A DNA stretch of 64,000 nt from Acidimicrobiaceae bacterium (GCA_027314705.1 DAHVAJ010000022.1:1-64000), one strand, 5' to 3'. Shown: positions 3,013-9,831, counted from the stretch's first letter. The notes: generated from the letters alone by a model not told the origin. Program-made: numbers and translations.

Positions 3013-3984
3013 TCAGGGGGCGTCCGTCCGCCGGGCGGGGCCGTCGTCGCCGGGCTCGGGTGGTGGTGCCCCGCCCGGCGGGGGCACGGTGCCGGTCGGG
3101 TCCCCGCTCCCGGGGTCCCGGGCCCCCTGGCGGTCGAGCCGCTCGAAGTGGCGCTCGACGTCGGCCCAGACCAGCGGGTCGTCGGGGCCGAAGCGTTCGT
3201 CCGACTCCCGGGTGCGGGACAGGACCACGGCGGCCGCCGGCAGGAGCACGGCCAGGAACCCGAGCTTGGAGACGAAGCCGGCCACCTGCTGGTCGTTGAG
3301 CGCACGGAGCCCGATGGCGGCGTGGGCCCCGGCGAAGGCGGGGTAGAAGGGGCGGGCGGCCAGGATGTACACGAAGGAGAGGAAGGCCGGGACGACGGCC
3401 TGGACGACCAGGTAGCCGACGCGGGCCACCGGCCGCGGGCGCACGAGTCCCGGCACCCGGCCGAGGACGGGCAGCCACAGCACGAGTCCGGCGGCCACGG
3501 CGGCCACGTCGAGCGCGGCGCGGGCCCACGGGGAGGCCGCCTGGGCGGCGACCAGGGGGGGCGCCATCGAGGCCACGGCCACCACGGTCACCACCACCAC
3601 GGCCGTGACCGGGCGGGCCAGCCGGGTGAGCAGGGCGTCGACCGGCGCGGGGCGGGTCAGCCACTGGACGACGTCATAGGGGAGGCCGAGGAGCAGGAGG
3701 GGGGCGACGGCCAGGACCAGGAGCACGCGCTGGGTCACCAGCGCGGTGAGGGACCAGTGGGCGGCCAGGTCGGCCAGGGGCCAGCCGAGGGCGAGCCCCG
3801 AGACGCCGAGGGCGACGGCGAAGCGTGCCCGCTCGCCGCCCGTCCACGGCACCGGGTGGGCGGCCCGGTGATGCAGCCGACGGTGCCCGAGGCCCACGGC
3901 CACCGCCCCGGCCACCAGGACCGCCCAGGTACCGGGGTGGAGATGGGGTGCCCACGGGCGGAGGGCGGCGGTCAGGGTGGGCAC
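3013..3984 (-). CDS. CtaG-like cytochrome c oxidase assembly factor (caa3 type)
   Basis: Polytopic membrane protein of 323 residues with about seven transmembrane helices, matching the caa3_CtaG family seen in Bacillus CtaG and in actinobacteria. The segment WPLADLAAHWSLTALVTQR followed by LLLGLPYDVVQWL and the later VVPAFLSFVYILAARPFYPAF, with conserved His/Pro positions, is characteristic. Family members are linked to copper delivery or assembly of cytochrome oxidase. The last 80 residues are a soluble charged and Pro/Gly-rich tail. The GTG start at 3984 diverges from the WYL gene with only 29 bp between them, so the two promoters must be closely packed. No other respiratory gene is in the window. 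Confidence 0.75.
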   Translation of the reverse strand: MPTLTAALRPWAPHLHPGTWAVLVAGAVAVGLGHRRLHHRAAHPVPWTGGERARFAVALGVSGLALGWPLADLAAHWSLTALVTQRVLLVLAVAPLLLLGLPYDVVQWLTRPAPVDALLTRLARPVTAVVVVTVVAVASMAPPLVAAQAASPWARAALDVAAVAAGLVLWLPVLGRVPGLVRPRPVARVGYLVVQAVVPAFLSFVYILAARPFYPAFAGAHAAIGLRALNDQQVAGFVSKLGFLAVLLPAAAVVLSRTRESDERFGPDDPLVWADVERHFERLDRQGARDPGSGDPTGTVPPPGGAPPPEPGDDGPARRTDAP

Positions 3985-4013
3985 GGAATCCCCCGGGTCC
4001 TAGATTGGCGCCG

Positions 4014-4976
4014 ATGGCACCGCCCGACCGACTCGAACGCGTGACCGACCTGCTCCTCGTCCTCCTCGCTGCGGCCCGGCCGCTCAGCCTGCGCGAGATC
4101 GCCGACCGGGTGCCCGGCTACCCCGCGGGCGCCGCCGCCCGCCGCCAGGCCTTCGAGCGCGACAAGCGGCTGCTGCGCGACGAGGGCGTCCCGGTGCTGG
4201 TCGAGCCGCTCGACGGCGACGACCAGGCCGGCTACCGGATCGACCCGGACGCCTACTTCCTGCCCGACCTCGGCCTCACCCCGGAGGAGCAGGCGGCGCT
4301 CAACGTGGCGGTGGCCGGCGTCCACGTGGGCGAGCCTATCGGCCGTGACGCCCTCTCCAAGCTGGGACTCGCCGGCGCCGGGCCCGGCCGGGCCCGGCCG
4401 GCGCCCCTCGTCGACGTGCCCGCCTTCGCCGGCGTCCCGGCGCTGCCCCAGCTCTTCGAGGCCGTCCGCCGGCGGTCCTCGGTCACCTTCCCCTACCGCG
4501 GCGAGCGCCGGTCGGTGGACCCCGCCGGCATCCGGTTCCGGGGCGGCCGCTGGTACCTGGTGGGCTGGGACCGCGACCGGGGCGAGGGGCGCACCTTCCG
4601 GGTCGACCGGGTCGACGCCGCCCCGGAGCTCGGGCCGGCCGGCACGGCCGAACTGCCCCCAGATTTCGACGTCGACGAGGCGTTCGGGCGCGACCCCTGG
4701 CGCTTCGGCCACGGCGACGAGACCGCGGTCGACGTGGCCGTGGACCCGGCCGAGGCCCGCCGGGTCGAGGCCGACCTGGGGGCCGGCGCCGTGGTCGGGC
4801 GCCTCGCCGACGGTTCGGTGGTCGTCCGCCTGACCGTCACCGACACCGAGGCGCTCGTGCTCTGGGTGCTCGACCTCCTCGACCATGCCGAGGTGCTGCG
4901 TCCCCCCGAGGTGCGTGCCGCCGTGGCGGCCCGGCTGACCTCGGTGGCGACGGCCGCAACGGGGGCGGAGGCGTGA
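4014..4976 (+). CDS. WYL-domain transcriptional regulator (PafB-like)
   Basis: Predicted DNA-binding regulator of 320 residues. An N-terminal winged helix (PPDRLERVTDLLLVLL... with REIADRVPGY as recognition region) is followed by a WYL domain with the signature GRWYLVGWDRD at about residue 180 and FRVDRVD, then a C-terminal WCX-like extension. In mycobacteria the paired PafB and PafC WYL proteins activate DNA-damage genes, and single-stranded DNA is thought to be sensed by WYL domains. The stop codon overlaps the start of the next WYL gene by 4 bp, the arrangement of pafB-pafC. The ATG at 4014 follows TAGATT (4001-4006) by 7 nt, so it is the likely leaderless start; the frame is open to 3825 but that part runs antisense to the CtaG-like gene. 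Confidence 0.85.
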   Translation: MAPPDRLERVTDLLLVLLAAARPLSLREIADRVPGYPAGAAARRQAFERDKRLLRDEGVPVLVEPLDGDDQAGYRIDPDAYFLPDLGLTPEEQAALNVAVAGVHVGEPIGRDALSKLGLAGAGPGRARPAPLVDVPAFAGVPALPQLFEAVRRRSSVTFPYRGERRSVDPAGIRFRGGRWYLVGWDRDRGEGRTFRVDRVDAAPELGPAGTAELPPDFDVDEAFGRDPWRFGHGDETAVDVAVDPAEARRVEADLGAGAVVGRLADGSVVVRLTVTDTEALVLWVLDLLDHAEVLRPPEVRAAVAARLTSVATAATGAEA

Positions 4977-5956
4977 GCCCGGTGCCCGACACGGCGGCCC
5001 GGCTGCGGCGGCTGCTGGCCATCCTGGCCTGGCTGGCCCAGGTGGGGGAGGCCCCGGTCGACGAGGTGGCCGCCCGGTTCGACCTCACCCCGGCCGCCCT
5101 CGTGGCCGAGCTCGAGCTGGCCGCCTGCTGCGGCGTGCCCCCCTACACGCCCGACCAGCTGCTCGAGATCATCGTCACCGAGGACACCGTCTCGGCCCGC
5201 CTCGGCCCGTCCCTCGGCCGGCCGCGCCGGCTCAGCCCGCCCGAGGGCCTGGCCCTGGCGGCGGCCGCCCGCGCCCTCCTCGCCGTGCCGGGCAGCGACG
5301 CCGGCGGTGCCCTGTCGCGGGCCCTCGACAAGCTCGAGCGGGCCCTCGGGGGGAGCGCCCTGGAGATCGAGCTCGACCGCCCCGAGCACCTCGGCGTGGT
5401 GCAGGCCGCCGTCGACCACCACCGTCGTCTGGCCGTGTCCTACTACTCCGCCTCCACCGACCAGGTCGGCGACCGGACCATCGTGCCCCATCGGCTCTTC
5501 GCCTCGGAGGGCCACTGGTACGTGGACGCCCACTGCGAGCAGGCCGGGGGGGAGCGCCGCTTCCGCCTCGACCGGATCCGCTCGGCGGCGGCGGTCGGCG
5601 CCGCACCGGTGAGCGACGACACGACCGGTGGCCCCGGGGCCGGCCAGCCGGCCGGCCTGGACGCCTTCGTGCCCGGACCCGACAGCCGGCGGGTGGTCCT
5701 GGCCGTCGACCCGTCGCGGGCGTGGCTGCTCGAGGGCATTCCGTCGGCCAGCCGGCTCGCCGACCCCGGCGGGGGCCGCGAGCGGTGGGCGCTCTTCGTG
5801 GGCGGCGATGCCTGGCTCGAGCGCCTGCTGCTGCGGCTCGGTCCCTGGGGCGAGCTGGTGGAGCCCGCCGCCGACCGCGTCCTCGGTCCGCGGGCGGCCG
5901 CCCGCCTCCTGGCCCGGTACGCCGGTGCCGGAGCGGAAGATCATGGAAACCAATGA
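4973..5956 (+). CDS. WYL-domain transcriptional regulator (PafC-like)
   Basis: Second WYL regulator, 327 residues, starting at a GTG that overlaps the stop of the upstream WYL gene (GTGA). The order is an N-terminal helix-turn-helix (RRLLAILAWLAQVGEAPVDE, then a second helix ending DLTPAALVAELELA), a WYL domain in which the signature reads GHWYVDAHCEQ, followed by RRFRLDRIRSA, and a C-terminal WCX region. The tight coupling suggests it forms a heteromeric complex with the first protein, as PafBC does. The proteasome/Pup genes that flank pafBC in mycobacteria are not here, so the orthology is a family-level statement only. The gene is followed by the hairpin at 5959-5999. Confidence 0.85.
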   Translation: MSPVPDTAARLRRLLAILAWLAQVGEAPVDEVAARFDLTPAALVAELELAACCGVPPYTPDQLLEIIVTEDTVSARLGPSLGRPRRLSPPEGLALAAAARALLAVPGSDAGGALSRALDKLERALGGSALEIELDRPEHLGVVQAAVDHHRRLAVSYYSASTDQVGDRTIVPHRLFASEGHWYVDAHCEQAGGERRFRLDRIRSAAAVGAAPVSDDTTGGPGAGQPAGLDAFVPGPDSRRVVLAVDPSRAWLLEGIPSASRLADPGGGRERWALFVGGDAWLERLLLRLGPWGELVEPAADRVLGPRAAARLLARYAGAGAEDHGNQ

Positions 5957-6001: not shown

Positions 6002-7339
6002 GTGCCCGTGCCGATGCTGAGGGCGCACGTGGTGCGGGACGGGCGGGCCCCGTACTACGTCCCCGCCGACGTCCCCGGTCCCGATCCGGGCCGCTGGCCT
6101 GACGGGCTCCCGGGGACGTGGACCGGGGCCGGGGCGGCTCGGCTCGGCCTGTCGGGGCCGGTGGCCCTGGCCGACCTGGTCGCCGTGCTGGCCGGGCGCG
6201 ACCCGTGGACCGACCGGTCGCTGCGCACCGTTCGGGAGGGACGCGCCGTCGCCGGCGTGGACCTGACCCTGGCCGCGCCCAAGGCGGTGAGCCTGGTCCA
6301 CCTGCTCGGGACCTCGGAGCTGGCCGCCCAGGTCGGTGCGGCCCATGCCGCGGCGGTGTCCGACGCCGCCGCCTACGTCGAGCGGGTGGCGCTCGGCGTC
6401 CGCCGGAGCCGCGGGGGCGTGATCACCCGCCACCGCGCCGCCGGCGCGGTGGCGGCCGGCTTCCTCCACCGCACCAGCCGGGCCGACGACCCGCACCTCC
6501 ACTCCCACCTGGTGGTGGCCAACGCCACCCAGGGGCCGGACGGGCTGTGGTCGGCGGTGGACACCCGCCGCCTGTTCCGGCACGCCCCGGCCGTCGGGGC
6601 CCTCTACGATGCCTGCCTGCGGGCGGAGCTCACCGGGCGGTTCGGTGCGGCCTGGGAGCCGGGCCCGGGCGGGCGGTGGGTACTGGCCGGTGTCGACCCG
6701 GCGCTCTGCCGCCTCTTCTCCCAGCGGACCGCGGCCATCGACGAGCACGCGCACCGGCGCGTCGGGCACCTCGGCGGGGAGGCCGTGCGGCGAACGGCGG
6801 CCGTCGTGGACCGTCCGCCGAAGTCGGCCGGCCTGCCCCTCGACGAGCTGCGGCAGGCGTGGCGCGACCGGGCCGAGGCGTTCGGGCTCGACCCGGCCGA
6901 CCTGGGGCGCGTCGTGGGCCGGGCCCGGCCGCCGTCACCGGGCGCACCGGTCGAACTCGACCGCCTCGAGCACCGCCTGCAGGCGCTGGCGGAGCGGGAT
7001 GCGGCGCTGTACCCGCCCCGGCTGGTGGCCGCCGTCGCCGACGCCGTCGGACCGGGCGCGCCGGGGGCCCGCATCGTGGACCTGGTCGACGACCTCACCC
7101 GGAGCGCCGCCCGCCGGTGCCCGTCGGACCGGGCACCGGGCGCGCTGCCGGCCCGGGCCGTCCTCGATGCCGTTCGTGCCGACGGGGGTCTGCCCGCCGA
7201 CCGGTCGCACCGAGCCGACGGCGGGGTCGTGGTGCACCGTTCCCCGGAGGTGGACCCCGGCCGCCGGCCCGACCCGGTCGACCGGCGGATGCCCCGGTCG
7301 ACGGCCGGGCCGGCGATGGTCCTCGACCGGTGGGGATGA
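6002..7339 (+). CDS. MobF-type (TrwC-like) relaxase domain protein without helicase
   Basis: Predicted conjugative relaxase of 445 residues. The N-terminus carries a Tyr pair (Y18, Y19), then WTGAGAARLGLSG, then DLTLAAPKAVSLVHLLG at about 87-103, and the metal-binding histidine triad DPHLHSHLV (H165, H167, H169) before ATQGPDGLWSAVD. These match the order of the TrwC/TraI relaxase domain, which nicks oriT and stays attached to the 5' end. The usual C-terminal SF1 helicase half (full proteins are about 900-1900 residues) is absent. Residues after about 310 are Arg/Pro rich and not recognisable. In-frame GTG at 6002 and 6008 and ATG at 6014 are possible starts behind GGAGGAG. It faces the coupling ATPase gene tail to tail with a 41 bp gap. 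No integrase or mating-pore genes are present. Confidence 0.8.
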   Translation: MPVPMLRAHVVRDGRAPYYVPADVPGPDPGRWPDGLPGTWTGAGAARLGLSGPVALADLVAVLAGRDPWTDRSLRTVREGRAVAGVDLTLAAPKAVSLVHLLGTSELAAQVGAAHAAAVSDAAAYVERVALGVRRSRGGVITRHRAAGAVAAGFLHRTSRADDPHLHSHLVVANATQGPDGLWSAVDTRRLFRHAPAVGALYDACLRAELTGRFGAAWEPGPGGRWVLAGVDPALCRLFSQRTAAIDEHAHRRVGHLGGEAVRRTAAVVDRPPKSAGLPLDELRQAWRDRAEAFGLDPADLGRVVGRARPPSPGAPVELDRLEHRLQALAERDAALYPPRLVAAVADAVGPGAPGARIVDLVDDLTRSAARRCPSDRAPGALPARAVLDAVRADGGLPADRSHRADGGVVVHRSPEVDPGRRPDPVDRRMPRSTAGPAMVLDRWG

Positions 7340-7380
7340 CCGGCGCGCCGGTCGTCCCGCCGCCCCGGCCCCGAACCCCC

Positions 7381-8796
7381 TCACCGCTCGATCCCGAGCG
7401 GCCCCGGGGCGGGCCGGGACCGGTCCCGGGTGCGTTCGCGTCCCCGCAGCGTGCGCCAGGGCTCGGCCCGGTGCGCCGGCGCCAGGGGTATCCAGCCGGC
7501 CCGATTGCGCTGGTCGAACGCGAGGGCCCACCCGTCCCGACCGCGGGCGATGGCATCGACGGGCAGCCGCCGCTGCCACCGGGTCGAGAACTCCTCGCCC
7601 ACGTGGCGCCGGCCCCCGGTCACCAGGTCGGCCACGGGACGGCCGGTGGGACCCCGGCCCAGCGAGCGCGACCGGGTGACGACCTCCTCGTCGCCAGCGA
7701 GCGCCGAGAGCACCTCGAGCGTCCGCACGTCGCCGATCCCCGGAAGGACGACCGTGGCTCCGAACAGCGAGGGGAACCCGTCGGCCAGGGTGGGCCACCG
7801 GCGCCGGGCCTGCGAGAGGTCCTGGAGGCAGGCCAGCAGCACCAGGCCCTGGCCGCCCCCTTCGCTGACCATGGCCGGGAGCTCCGGGAGCGGGGCGATG
7901 TTGGCCAGTTCGTCGAGCGCCAGGACCACCGGCGGGCCGTCCGTGCCGTCCCGGGCGGCCCGCGCATAGGCGGCCCGACGGATGTCGGACAGGAGCCCCA
8001 CGACGAGGGGCGCGGCCAGCGCCTGGTGTTCGGCCGGGGCGGCGACGAACACGGTGTCGGACGAGGCCACGAAGCGGTCGGCATCGAACCCGGGGCGGCT
8101 GGTGGCGGCCAGGGCCTCCTCCGAACGGAAGCCGGCAAGTGCGCCCGAGGCGGTCGACCAGATGCCGCTCCGCTCGCGGTCGTCCGTGGCCACCACCCCC
8201 TCGAGCACGTCGCGGGCCACGGGCGTGGCCGCCGGCTCCCAGGCCAGCACCTGCTGGGCGGGGAGGGCCTGACGACGGTCCACCCAGGTCAGCACGGTGC
8301 GCATGTCGGCACCGTCGAGGGCGGCGGCGTGGAGCAGCGGGGCCAGGAGGGCCTGGGCCCGTTCCGTCCAGTGCGATGCGTCGGACGACGTCCCGTCGTG
8401 TCCGGGGGAGGTGAGGACCAAGGCGCGCGCCGTGGACAGGGCCACCCTCCAGTCGGAACAGGCGGGCACGGGCGACCACCGAAGGCGCTCCACCCCCGGC
8501 CGGTCGGCGATGGAGTTGGTGGGATCGAAGAGCAGACACGCCCCGACGGCCCGACGCACCGTCTTCGTGGCATCGAGCACGTCCGCCTTGGTGGACGTGG
8601 TCACCACCGGACCGTTGGCGCCGAGCACGTTGGGGATCACGAGCGCGGAGGTCTTGCCCGATCGCGGCGGCCCGAGGACGAGCACCGATTGCTGCGTCGG
8701 GACGTGTCGCCATCCCCCGTCGTCGTGGCCGAGGTAGAGCCCGTGCGCGGCGCGGGCGAACGCGTCGCGCACGACGCGTGCTTGCGGATCGACCAC
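7381..8796 (-). CDS. VirD4/TraG-type conjugative coupling ATPase, no membrane anchor
   Basis: P-loop ATPase of about 471 residues from the GTG at 8796. Walker A is GPPRSGKT (residues 42-49), followed by IPNVLGANGPVVTTSTKADVL (split: IPNVLG, then VVTTSTKADVL). Walker B is VVLALDELANIAPLPELP, then MVSEGGGQGLVLLACLQDLSQ with the conserved Gln, all typical of type IV coupling proteins that hand relaxase-bound DNA to a secretion channel. The N-terminal transmembrane helices of VirD4 are missing. The frame stays open to 9081 with an in-frame ATG at 8952, but the extra codons use TTT, AAA, TCT and GTT, unlike the rest of the window, so the shorter start is preferred; this is uncertain. It pairs functionally with the convergent relaxase gene. 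Confidence 0.78.
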   Translation of the reverse strand: MVDPQARVVRDAFARAAHGLYLGHDDGGWRHVPTQQSVLVLGPPRSGKTSALVIPNVLGANGPVVTTSTKADVLDATKTVRRAVGACLLFDPTNSIADRPGVERLRWSPVPACSDWRVALSTARALVLTSPGHDGTSSDASHWTERAQALLAPLLHAAALDGADMRTVLTWVDRRQALPAQQVLAWEPAATPVARDVLEGVVATDDRERSGIWSTASGALAGFRSEEALAATSRPGFDADRFVASSDTVFVAAPAEHQALAAPLVVGLLSDIRRAAYARAARDGTDGPPVVLALDELANIAPLPELPAMVSEGGGQGLVLLACLQDLSQARRRWPTLADGFPSLFGATVVLPGIGDVRTLEVLSALAGDEEVVTRSRSLGRGPTGRPVADLVTGGRRHVGEEFSTRWQRRLPVDAIARGRDGWALAFDQRNRAGWIPLAPAHRAEPWRTLRGRERTRDRSRPAPGPLGIER

Positions 8797-9120
8797 ATTC
8801 GACGATCGTCCAGGAATATTTTCCGGCACTCGTCCACCCTCGATTGCGCACGCGGCGCAGGTCGTTCGATGCGGGCGGAGCAGGCTGTCCGCGACGGTGC
8901 GCTCCCGGGCGCGCTGGTGAGAATCGTTGCAAACAGAGGGAAATTTGTCCATAGCCTGTTGACCTGAACCATTGCGCCCACCTTCCGTATGTCCTCGCGC
9001 GGATCCGGGCCGAGGCGCGCCGGCGCGCCGGCCCGCCGACGCGCGCCCGCGTGAGTGCTTGACCTGGGCGGAAAATGCCATTTGGCTAGTACCTGGTTAC
9101 GTACTGCTGCGGAGGTGATC
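8797..9120. other. AT-richer intergenic stretch between coupling ATPase and HU-fusion gene
   Basis: 324 bp with short AT-rich islands (around 8812-8825, 8930-8950 and 9071-9105), unusual in this window. It contains a tandem pair of GGCGCGCC palindromes at 9014-9029, a possible -35 TTGACC at 9059-9064 and an inverted repeat AGTAC/GTACT (9088-9092 and 9101-9105) just upstream of the HU-fusion gene. Part may encode the N-terminus of the coupling ATPase if its start is at 8952. No further gene was recognised. Confidence 0.5.
9014..9029. repeat. 16 bp perfect palindrome, tandem GGCGCGCC
   Basis: Two directly abutting copies of the 8-bp palindrome GGCGCGCC together form a perfect 16-bp palindrome in the control region between the divergent coupling-ATPase and HU-fusion genes. 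It could be a protein-binding site, but GC-rich chance sequence cannot be excluded. Confidence 0.5.
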
Positions 9121-9831
9121 GTGAACAGGTCGCAGCTCGTCCGAGCGGTGGCCGAGTCGACAGAGTCGGCACGGCGATCCGTCGAGGGCGTGGTGGAGGT
9201 CTTGTTCGACACGATCGTCGACGAGGTGCGTGCGGGACGGAAGGTCACCGTGGTGGGGTTCGGAACGTTCACCCCCATGGCGCGGGCCCCCCGACTCGGA
9301 CGCAACCCGCGAACCGGCGTGGCGGTACCGATCCCTGCGTCGAATGGGGTCCGGTTCGCCACCGGTTCGACGTTCAAGTCGGCGTTGAACCCTAAGGAGG
9401 AACTATCCATGGCAGTGAAGAAGGCAGCGGCCAAGAAGGCCCCGGCTCGAAAGACGGCGGCCAAGAAGACCACCGCCCGCAAGACCACGGCCAAGAAGAC
9501 CGCGGCCAAGCGGGCTACCAAGAAGGCTCCGGCTCGCAAGACCGCTGCCAAGAAGACCACCGCCCGAAAGACGGCGGCCAAGAAGACCACGGCACGCAAG
9601 ACCACGGCCAAGAAGACCGCGGCCAAGCGCACCACCAAGAAGGCTCCGGCTCGCAAGACGGCGGCCAGGAAGACCACGGCCAGGAAGACCGCGGCCAAGA
9701 AGGCTCCGGCTCGCAAGTCGGCGGCCAGGAAGACCACGGCCAAGAAGGCCCCGGCCAGGAAGTCCACGGCCAGGAAGGCCCCGGCCCGCAAGACCGCGGC
9801 CAGGAAGGCGCCGGCCCGCAGGGGCCGTTGA
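9121..9831 (+). CDS. HU nucleoid protein fused to Lys/Ala-rich H1-like tail
   Basis: 236-residue protein. Residues 1-91 are a complete HU/IHF fold: MNRSQLVRAV start, VTVVGFGTF, RNPRTG arm motif and a final VRFATGSTFKSALN, the length of a free-standing HU. From residue 97 onward the chain is a low-complexity tail of KK, AAK, ARK and TAKK units like the C-terminus of mycobacterial HupB or eukaryotic H1, expected to bind DNA non-specifically and condense it. The GTG start has a strong SD (GGAGGTGATC, 9111-9120). The two parts are joined exactly at the natural HU end, where a perfect SD and an ATG lie inside the frame (9394-9411), so a separate tail protein may also be made. A hairpin terminator follows at 9866. 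Confidence 0.9.
   Translation: MNRSQLVRAVAESTESARRSVEGVVEVLFDTIVDEVRAGRKVTVVGFGTFTPMARAPRLGRNPRTGVAVPIPASNGVRFATGSTFKSALNPKEELSMAVKKAAAKKAPARKTAAKKTTARKTTAKKTAAKRATKKAPARKTAAKKTTARKTAAKKTTARKTTAKKTAAKRTTKKAPARKTAARKTTARKTAAKKAPARKSAARKTTAKKAPARKSTARKAPARKTAARKAPARRGR
9394..9411 (+). promoter_or_regulatory. Internal Shine-Dalgarno and ATG inside the HU-tail fusion
   Basis: AAGGAGG at 9394-9400, 8 nt, then ATG at 9409, in frame with the HU gene. This is as good an SD as any in the window and sits precisely between the HU fold and the basic tail. The preceding codon contains TAA (9393-9395) out of frame, as if an ancestral HU stop had been shifted. Confidence 0.7.
9409..9831 (+). CDS. Possible independent H1-like basic protein (internal start)
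   Basis: Nested reading frame of 140 residues starting MAVKKAAAKKAPARK, made almost entirely of Lys, Ala, Arg, Thr and Pro. Stand-alone histone-H1-like proteins of this composition occur in several bacteria. The evidence for separate translation is the strong SD at 9394-9400; it is the same frame as the HU fusion, so both products could coexist. Whether the free tail is really produced is inference. Confidence 0.4.
   Translation: MAVKKAAAKKAPARKTAAKKTTARKTTAKKTAAKRATKKAPARKTAAKKTTARKTAAKKTTARKTTAKKTAAKRTTKKAPARKTAARKTTARKTAAKKAPARKSAARKTTAKKAPARKSTARKAPARKTAARKAPARRGR
9481..9657 (+). repeat. Internal 117-bp-period repeat in the basic tail
   Basis: The 60-nt blocks 9481-9540 and 9598-9657 are identical except for a few bases around the CGG/CGC codon, a spacing of 39 codons. 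This indicates tail growth by duplication, and the region could vary in length between strains. Confidence 0.7.

Follow-up and report, generated by a model that had tools for sequence, protein, structure and literature searches.

Conjugation genes are usually seen as a property of plasmids and integrative elements. In model MOBF systems, helicase activity of the relaxase has been reported as required for transfer (PMC12857230). Type IV secretion systems (T4SSs) may also be chromosome-borne: that of the Gonococcal Genetic Island (GGI), which is carried by a sub-population and has an F-like apparatus, exports chromosomal single-stranded DNA (PMC4207684; PMC12857230). In Streptomyces, cmdABCDEF are chromosomal genes conserved within the genus, and their mutants have sporulation and segregation defects (PMC2782261).

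Here we analyze a stretch of 64,000 nucleotides (the window) from an Acidimicrobiaceae bacterium (GCA_027314705.1, DAHVAJ010000022.1:1-64000), in which a sequence-only reading had noted an orphan pair of relaxase and coupling ATPase beside a gene for a histone-like protein. That reading had left two options, a decayed mobilisable element or a domesticated DNA-processing or transfer system, and the follow-up speaks for the second. Judging from sequence comparisons, the pair is probably, though far from certainly, the DNA-processing half of a two-locus, domesticated type IV DNA-export or transfer system that forms part of the core chromosome in a number of Acidimicrobiales lineages.

The relaxase, the ATPase and their neighbours

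The relaxase open reading frame occupies positions 6002-7339 on the plus strand. Translation from the GTG at 6002 yields 445 residues, and the likely start is the ATG at 6014 (6014..7339, 441 residues). In a domain profile search the protein matched the TrwC domain (PF08751, E=4.7e-65), and it scores 200 bits against the NCBIfam MobF equivalog NF041492, for which the cut-off is 100. The motif I tyrosines Y18-Y19 are encoded at 6053..6058 (alignment A1), and the HUH metal site, composed of H156, H167 and H169 within 'HRTSRADDPHLHSH' (6467..6508), is invariant in 33/33 aligned relaxases. The AlphaFold model (mean pLDDT 85) was compared with known structures using Foldseek and fits TrwC bound to oriT DNA with a target-normalised TM of 0.83-0.87; structure prediction had been proposed earlier as a check, and it shows a relaxase fold. 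The protein therefore has the fold, the HUH triad and the two motif I tyrosines of MOBF relaxases, and the C-terminal SF1 helicase domain (AAA_30/helicase) was absent from it in the domain profile search. As this helicase is missing and is described as required (PMC12857230), this relaxase departs from MOBF in one defining feature while keeping the catalytic ones.

The relaxase ends in a disordered tail (residues 405-445, 7214..7336, pLDDT <50), delineated by tail statistics and the alignment. The tail is Arg-rich throughout the family, and in full-length relatives it is preceded by the helicase region. Arg-rich C-terminal tails ending in Arg were found in 40 of 58 relaxases and 47 of 59 ATPases (TraG); pafB and pafC products are unlike them in this respect. 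The tail ends of the relaxase and TraG, whose genes converge, often read L-x-R.

The convergent gene encodes a soluble VirD4/TraG-like ATPase of 482 residues with a GTG start (7381..8829, minus strand). Its identity had been recognised correctly, but the end given at 8796 was slightly short, the coding region reaching 8829. The ATPase matched T4SS-DNA_transf (PF02534, E=2e-24) and TraG-D_C (PF12696). Residues G53, P54, R56, G58, K59 and T60 of Walker A (GPPRSGKT, 8650..8673, minus strand) and L305, D306 and E307 of the Walker B region (LALDE, 7909..7923, minus strand) are invariant in alignment A2. According to Foldseek, the model resembles TrwB lacking its membrane anchor (TrwB deltaN70, TM ~0.7) as well as Cag-beta. 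The motor fold, Walker A and B, and the TraG-D_C domain of VirD4/TraG coupling proteins are all present, but the N-terminal membrane anchor is not: by hydropathy, no hydrophobic segment or anchor precedes Walker A in the window ATPase or in most of its relatives. The initial description of the pair, comprising a TrwC domain with its Tyr pair and His triad, no helicase half and an anchorless ATPase, is thus borne out. Among plasmid relatives of TraG, no relaxase-TraG pair was seen that could pass for an obvious ancestor.

Two genes for WYL regulators are located upstream of the relaxase gene (3825-5956, plus strand). The first is pafB-like (3825..4976; WYL PF13280, WCX PF25583) and is a conserved neighbour by synteny; the second is pafC-like (4973..5956; HTH_PafC PF19187, E=2e-28, and WYL) and adjoins the relaxase gene. 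In mycobacteria, PafBC acts as a regulator of DNA damage responses. Literature searches returned no paper linking PafBC with a relaxase and nothing relevant on relaxases in Acidimicrobiia. Beyond the ATPase gene lies the gene for an HU-family nucleoid protein with a Lys/Ala/Arg-rich tail (9121..9831, plus strand; PF00216, E=4.9e-24), the start of which was placed by the conserved GTGAACAGGTC. Of the three-gene order that the sequence-only reading had proposed to look for, the relaxase-TraG part is conserved, whereas HU adjoins TraG in some genera only (16 family loci and some distant relatives) and not in most of the family. HU as a fixed partner was consequently rejected; judged by synteny, it is treated as a neighbour.

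The divergent intergenic region between TraG and HU (8830..9120) was examined using an alignment of eight genus members and a search for inverted repeats. A conserved block beside HU looks like an HU promoter. No oriT-like element was recognised through either conserved intergenic sequence or inverted repeats in this region, and the inverted repeats around the pair are numerous and unremarkable for GC-rich sequence. Likewise, neither an integrase nor mating-pair genes were found beside the pair, nor att repeats at the locus. The earlier reading had likewise seen no integrase, att repeats or oriT-like element; regarding mating-pair genes it is right for the surroundings of the pair, but such genes lie on a different contig of this genome.

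Conservation of the locus and loss of the helicase

A relaxase homologue was found in 57 of the 60 sampled relatives from the same family. Of 56 family loci, 53 have pafC ahead of the relaxase and all have a convergent TraG next to it; included among the 56 are loci L082-L084, in which the relaxase was too divergent for tblastn and gave a weak signal in the family homologue search. The order pafB-pafC-relaxase-(convergent)TraG is kept as identity falls to ~31-40%. Among the best 80 relaxase loci of an independent GTDB collection of named genomes, pafC was upstream in 55 and both neighbours were present in 37, and the pafC-linked loci were almost all labelled Acidimicrobiales, Acidimicrobiaceae or Actinomycetes.

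Conservation of the catalytic residues and dN/dS had been suggested as checks, and both results speak against decay. Y18, H156, H167, H169, R160, D163 and N174, that is, the catalytic tyrosine and the His triad along with three further residues, are invariant in the 33 aligned relaxases, while the second tyrosine (Y19) gives way to F or L in several lineages with small genomes (alignment A1). In close pairs, dN/dS of the relaxase is 0.13-0.37, similar to that of pafB and pafC. The branch leading to the window genome is long; however, it is long for pafB, pafC and TraG as well, which rules out a special decay of the window relaxase. In the relaxase tree, a single branch (SH-aLRT 93) sets the pafBC-linked relaxases apart from 17 further relaxases of this order. 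Taken together, the invariant Tyr and His residues, purifying selection and conserved synteny identify pafBC-relaxase-TraG as a vertically inherited core chromosomal locus and not a decaying element.

In one genus member (G007, locus L048) the relaxase N-terminus with the catalytic Tyr region was not found in frame, and there is a gap of ~5 kb to pafC. This might represent local decay in that genome.

Sequence comparisons indicate that helicase loss is specific to the pafBC-linked relaxase group. In sister families, pafB-pafC-relaxase loci encode proteins of ~650-1040 residues, and some of these long relaxases retain weak helicase-domain traces. Of ten pafC-linked relaxases longer than 700 residues none has Walker A, compared with 30 of 35 long relaxases that are not so linked. 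Relaxases of the window's family have lost the central motor and retain the relaxase domain, linker, C-terminal block and Arg-rich tail; the C-terminal block, LGPRP...W..AA.AI.RYR.RWG, is present in many family relaxases.

The apparatus locus elsewhere on the chromosome

The orphan status originally assigned to the pair does not hold, as a conserved chromosomal T4SS locus is found in the same lineages and also, with virB4 interrupted, in this genome. The first models used, PF03135 and PF19044, had yielded no T4SS in the window's genome. The apparatus locus was exposed by PF12696 (TraG-D_C) matches in relatives, and a relative's VirB4 used as a query then found the own-genome copy. This second locus encodes a DUF6112 small membrane protein, a TrbL-like polytopic protein, an SCO6880-family protein (SCO6880_fam, E=7.7e-75) and VirB4-like and VirD4-like ATPases, the DUF6112, VirB4 and VirD4 models being matched as well; the match of the TrbL-like protein to the SCO6881 family is weak (35 bits). 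It is positioned between senX3-regX3-serS and glk or an amidase gene. In relatives, the locus comprises the gene set of a Gram-positive minimal T4SS (SCO6880 type). The locus recurs throughout the family, genomes of 1.6-2.3 Mb among them, and other families with the pafBC-linked relaxase have it too. Both VirD4-like proteins, TraG and the apparatus VirD4, seem to be soluble.

The two loci are associated. Outside this family, every pafBC-linked relaxase met in the sampled families was accompanied by a core apparatus locus, and in representatives of the order outside the family that lack the core apparatus, relaxases are not at pafBC. The position of the relaxase deviates in G081 and G091, the latter having apparatus genes (L211) and a 675-residue relaxase without Walker A (L214). 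In G075, which belongs to another family, a helicase-dead relaxase gene is divergent from DUF6112-TrbL-like-SCO6880-like-VirB4 within one chromosomal locus, providing a direct link between the two halves. Partial Mantel correlations controlling for pafB, pafC, serS and regX were 0.61 for relaxase-VirD4 and 0.65 for TraG-VirD4 (p=0.0005), compared with 0.04-0.34 for controls; saturated distances and shared rates may have inflated this covariation. It should be noted that the genomes of relatives are mostly metagenome assemblies, in which gene calls away from homology were made by a simple script.

Genome G038 retains the relaxase and TraG despite having lost the apparatus: a toxin-antitoxin pair sits in place of the apparatus operon (L234, 14658-15439), and a scar of 24-34 residues is left of the DUF6112 gene. 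The scar suggests that the loss was recent; because it looks recent, this loss neither supports nor refutes the link between relaxase and apparatus.

On contig 56 of the window's own genome the order is serS-regX3-senX3-DUF6112-TrbL-SCO6880-virB4, with virB4 disrupted right behind Walker B (VVDEAWAIL), after residue ~308, by an element starting with a serine recombinase (L192, 8520-10831). Neither the right half of virB4 nor the apparatus VirD4 was found in this assembly, which is 93% complete and in which the contig ends inside the element; the apparatus recovered from this incomplete assembly is accordingly not a complete one. At least five relatives from several genera have virB4 split at this very site (G004, G017, G054, G018 and G055; L215-L223). 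In G011 the cut falls at ~residue 53, ahead of Walker A, and is due to a different serine recombinase element (L224, 3829-5624); the recombinase itself was seen in G000 and G011 only. Given the element in virB4, the machine of the window's genome is probably off or conditionally off.

From G004, only the right half of virB4 was recovered. Together with VirD4 it lies ~1 kb from senX3 (L223), and the left half and upstream genes, DUF6112, TrbL and SCO6880, are missing, corresponding to a partial deletion of the apparatus.

Possible function and comparison with known systems

If the pair and the apparatus act together in DNA export, the relaxase would nick chromosomal DNA at a site and stay bound to it via Tyr18. 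Soluble TraG, with or instead of the apparatus VirD4, would recognise this relaxosome and supply the DNA motor in place of the lost relaxase helicase, and the VirB4/SCO6880/TrbL-like channel would pass chromosomal single-stranded DNA on to another cell or release it into the medium. We infer nicking, recruitment and export from conservation, synteny, the structures, apparatus co-occurrence, the Mantel correlations, the single locus of G075 and the group-specific helicase loss, all of which count for the export reading. Counting against it are the lack of a recognised oriT, the missing helicase, the apparent solubility of both VirD4-like proteins, the presence of the pair without the apparatus in G038, the few independent events behind the co-occurrence and the preponderance of metagenome assemblies. 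In addition, the closest chromosomal relative of the apparatus by description, Streptomyces cmd, is tied to sporulation and chromosome segregation rather than to DNA export (PMC2782261).

The strongest rival is an intracellular job, with the relaxase, the soluble motor and the T4SS-like locus serving in chromosome segregation, replication restart or DNA repair; we consider it unlikely, yet deserving of serious attention. Adjacency of the pair to pafBC, a DNA-damage regulator in mycobacteria, would fit such a job, as would the loss of the helicase, soluble TraG, the occasional adjacency of HU and the state of G038, which has the pair and no apparatus. The same direction is indicated by Streptomyces cmdABCDEF, whose products are SCO6878/6880/6881- and VirB4-like and affect sporulation and segregation (PMC2782261). 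However, Tyr18 and the HUH site, which are specific to strand transfer, are invariant, a polytopic TrbL-like protein together with VirB4 is what would be expected for envelope transport, and the distances of the relaxase and the apparatus VirD4 covary beyond those of neighbour genes.

A further alternative concerns the window's genome alone, where the virB4 element might have shut the machine for good, leaving the relaxase and TraG to drift. With VirB4 cut after residue ~308, its right half and VirD4 absent from the assembly and the window relaxase on a long terminal branch, such a relic is conceivable; nevertheless we regard it as quite improbable, because the branches of pafB, pafC and TraG are long too, so the relaxase is not specially accelerated, every invariant residue is retained, and the 93% complete assembly has its contig end within the element. 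Export of protein (the relaxase or another substrate) instead of DNA is very improbable: although the Arg-rich tails of the relaxase and TraG could be a translocation or docking signal, strictly conserved strand-transfer residues make little sense for a pure protein exporter. Finally, a mobilisable element that has decayed or arrived recently, be it an IME or what remains of a plasmid, is hardly credible even though MobF and TraG are families characteristic of mobile elements, plasmid matches are numerous (but below 60% identity) and virB4 is interrupted in this genome, since this reading is refuted for the pafBC locus by occurrence in 57 of 60 family relatives, conserved synteny, invariant residues and purifying selection (dN/dS 0.13-0.37), alongside the absence of an integrase, att repeats and sporadic distribution and the separate branch (SH-aLRT 93) from the order's other relaxases.

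A lead on the function of the putative export system comes from ComEC (PF03772). None of the 42 family genomes tested has ComEC, nor does any of the ten other families with the system; of the 29 sampled families lacking the system, 26 have ComEC. This anti-correlation was first seen in part of the order and then held in the remaining families. On an rpoB tree, the two traits (system and ComEC) need only 3 and 4 changes, leaving 2-3 independent contrasts, with which significance is unreachable. In view of only 2-3 independent transitions, we treat the pattern as suggestive, as a lead and not a test. If the system works, built-in conjugation-like gene exchange may have replaced DNA uptake. In its most far-reaching form, which we put forward tentatively as a doubtful but real possibility, this would be a vertically inherited core-genome DNA-transfer ('sex') system with a helicase-dead MobF relaxase, two soluble VirD4 motors and a split minimal T4SS, which may have replaced natural transformation and which mobile elements exploit or silence via a fixed virB4 site.

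In many genera, a relaxase and a coupling motor have kept their position next to core genes; the active site is preserved and the helicase gone. If DNA is moved, gene exchange would rank among the core functions of these soil and freshwater Acidimicrobiales, and a relaxase using an external motor would put to the test the idea that a built-in helicase is needed for MOBF transfer. Acidimicrobium ferrooxidans, cultured and completely sequenced (PMC3035218), appears to carry a version of the system and likely corresponds to G091; as a carrier, it would make the DNA-transfer question testable.

Among known systems, the MOBF relaxases TrwC (R388) and TraI (F) have in common with the window relaxase the relaxase fold, motif I tyrosines and HUH triad, and TraG has the TrwB motor fold with the all-alpha region, but is devoid of the membrane anchor of TrwB/TraD coupling proteins. 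The present system further differs from the TrwC/TraI systems in the lost helicase, chromosomal core location, separation from the apparatus and lack of a recognised oriT. Integrative and mobilisable elements (PMC5704250) similarly include a chromosomal relaxase with or without a coupling protein; in contrast to them, the pair has neither integrase nor att repeats, occupies a single conserved site and is vertically inherited. The interruption of virB4 is reminiscent of phage A118 in Listeria comK (PMC3556126), where a serine recombinase element likewise occupies a fixed site in a DNA-transport-related core gene; the target here is virB4, and the likeness seen so far lies in the insertion site. 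Streptomyces cmd/SCO6878-6881 resembles the apparatus locus in its chromosomal VirB4-, SCO6880- and SCO6881-like membrane genes, compared through shared family models (SCO6880_fam and, weakly, SCO6881_fam) and the description in the accessible part of the report, which describes no relaxase or VirD4 with cmd (PMC2782261). By analogy, the closest functional counterpart is the DNA-secretion T4SS of the GGI, which also has a relaxase and coupling protein with a T4SS on the chromosome, DNA export in our case being predicted from the genes alone. Unlike the GGI, the Acidimicrobiales system is found without ComEC for uptake and would combine a minimal Gram-positive SCO6880-type apparatus with core sites conserved across lineages.
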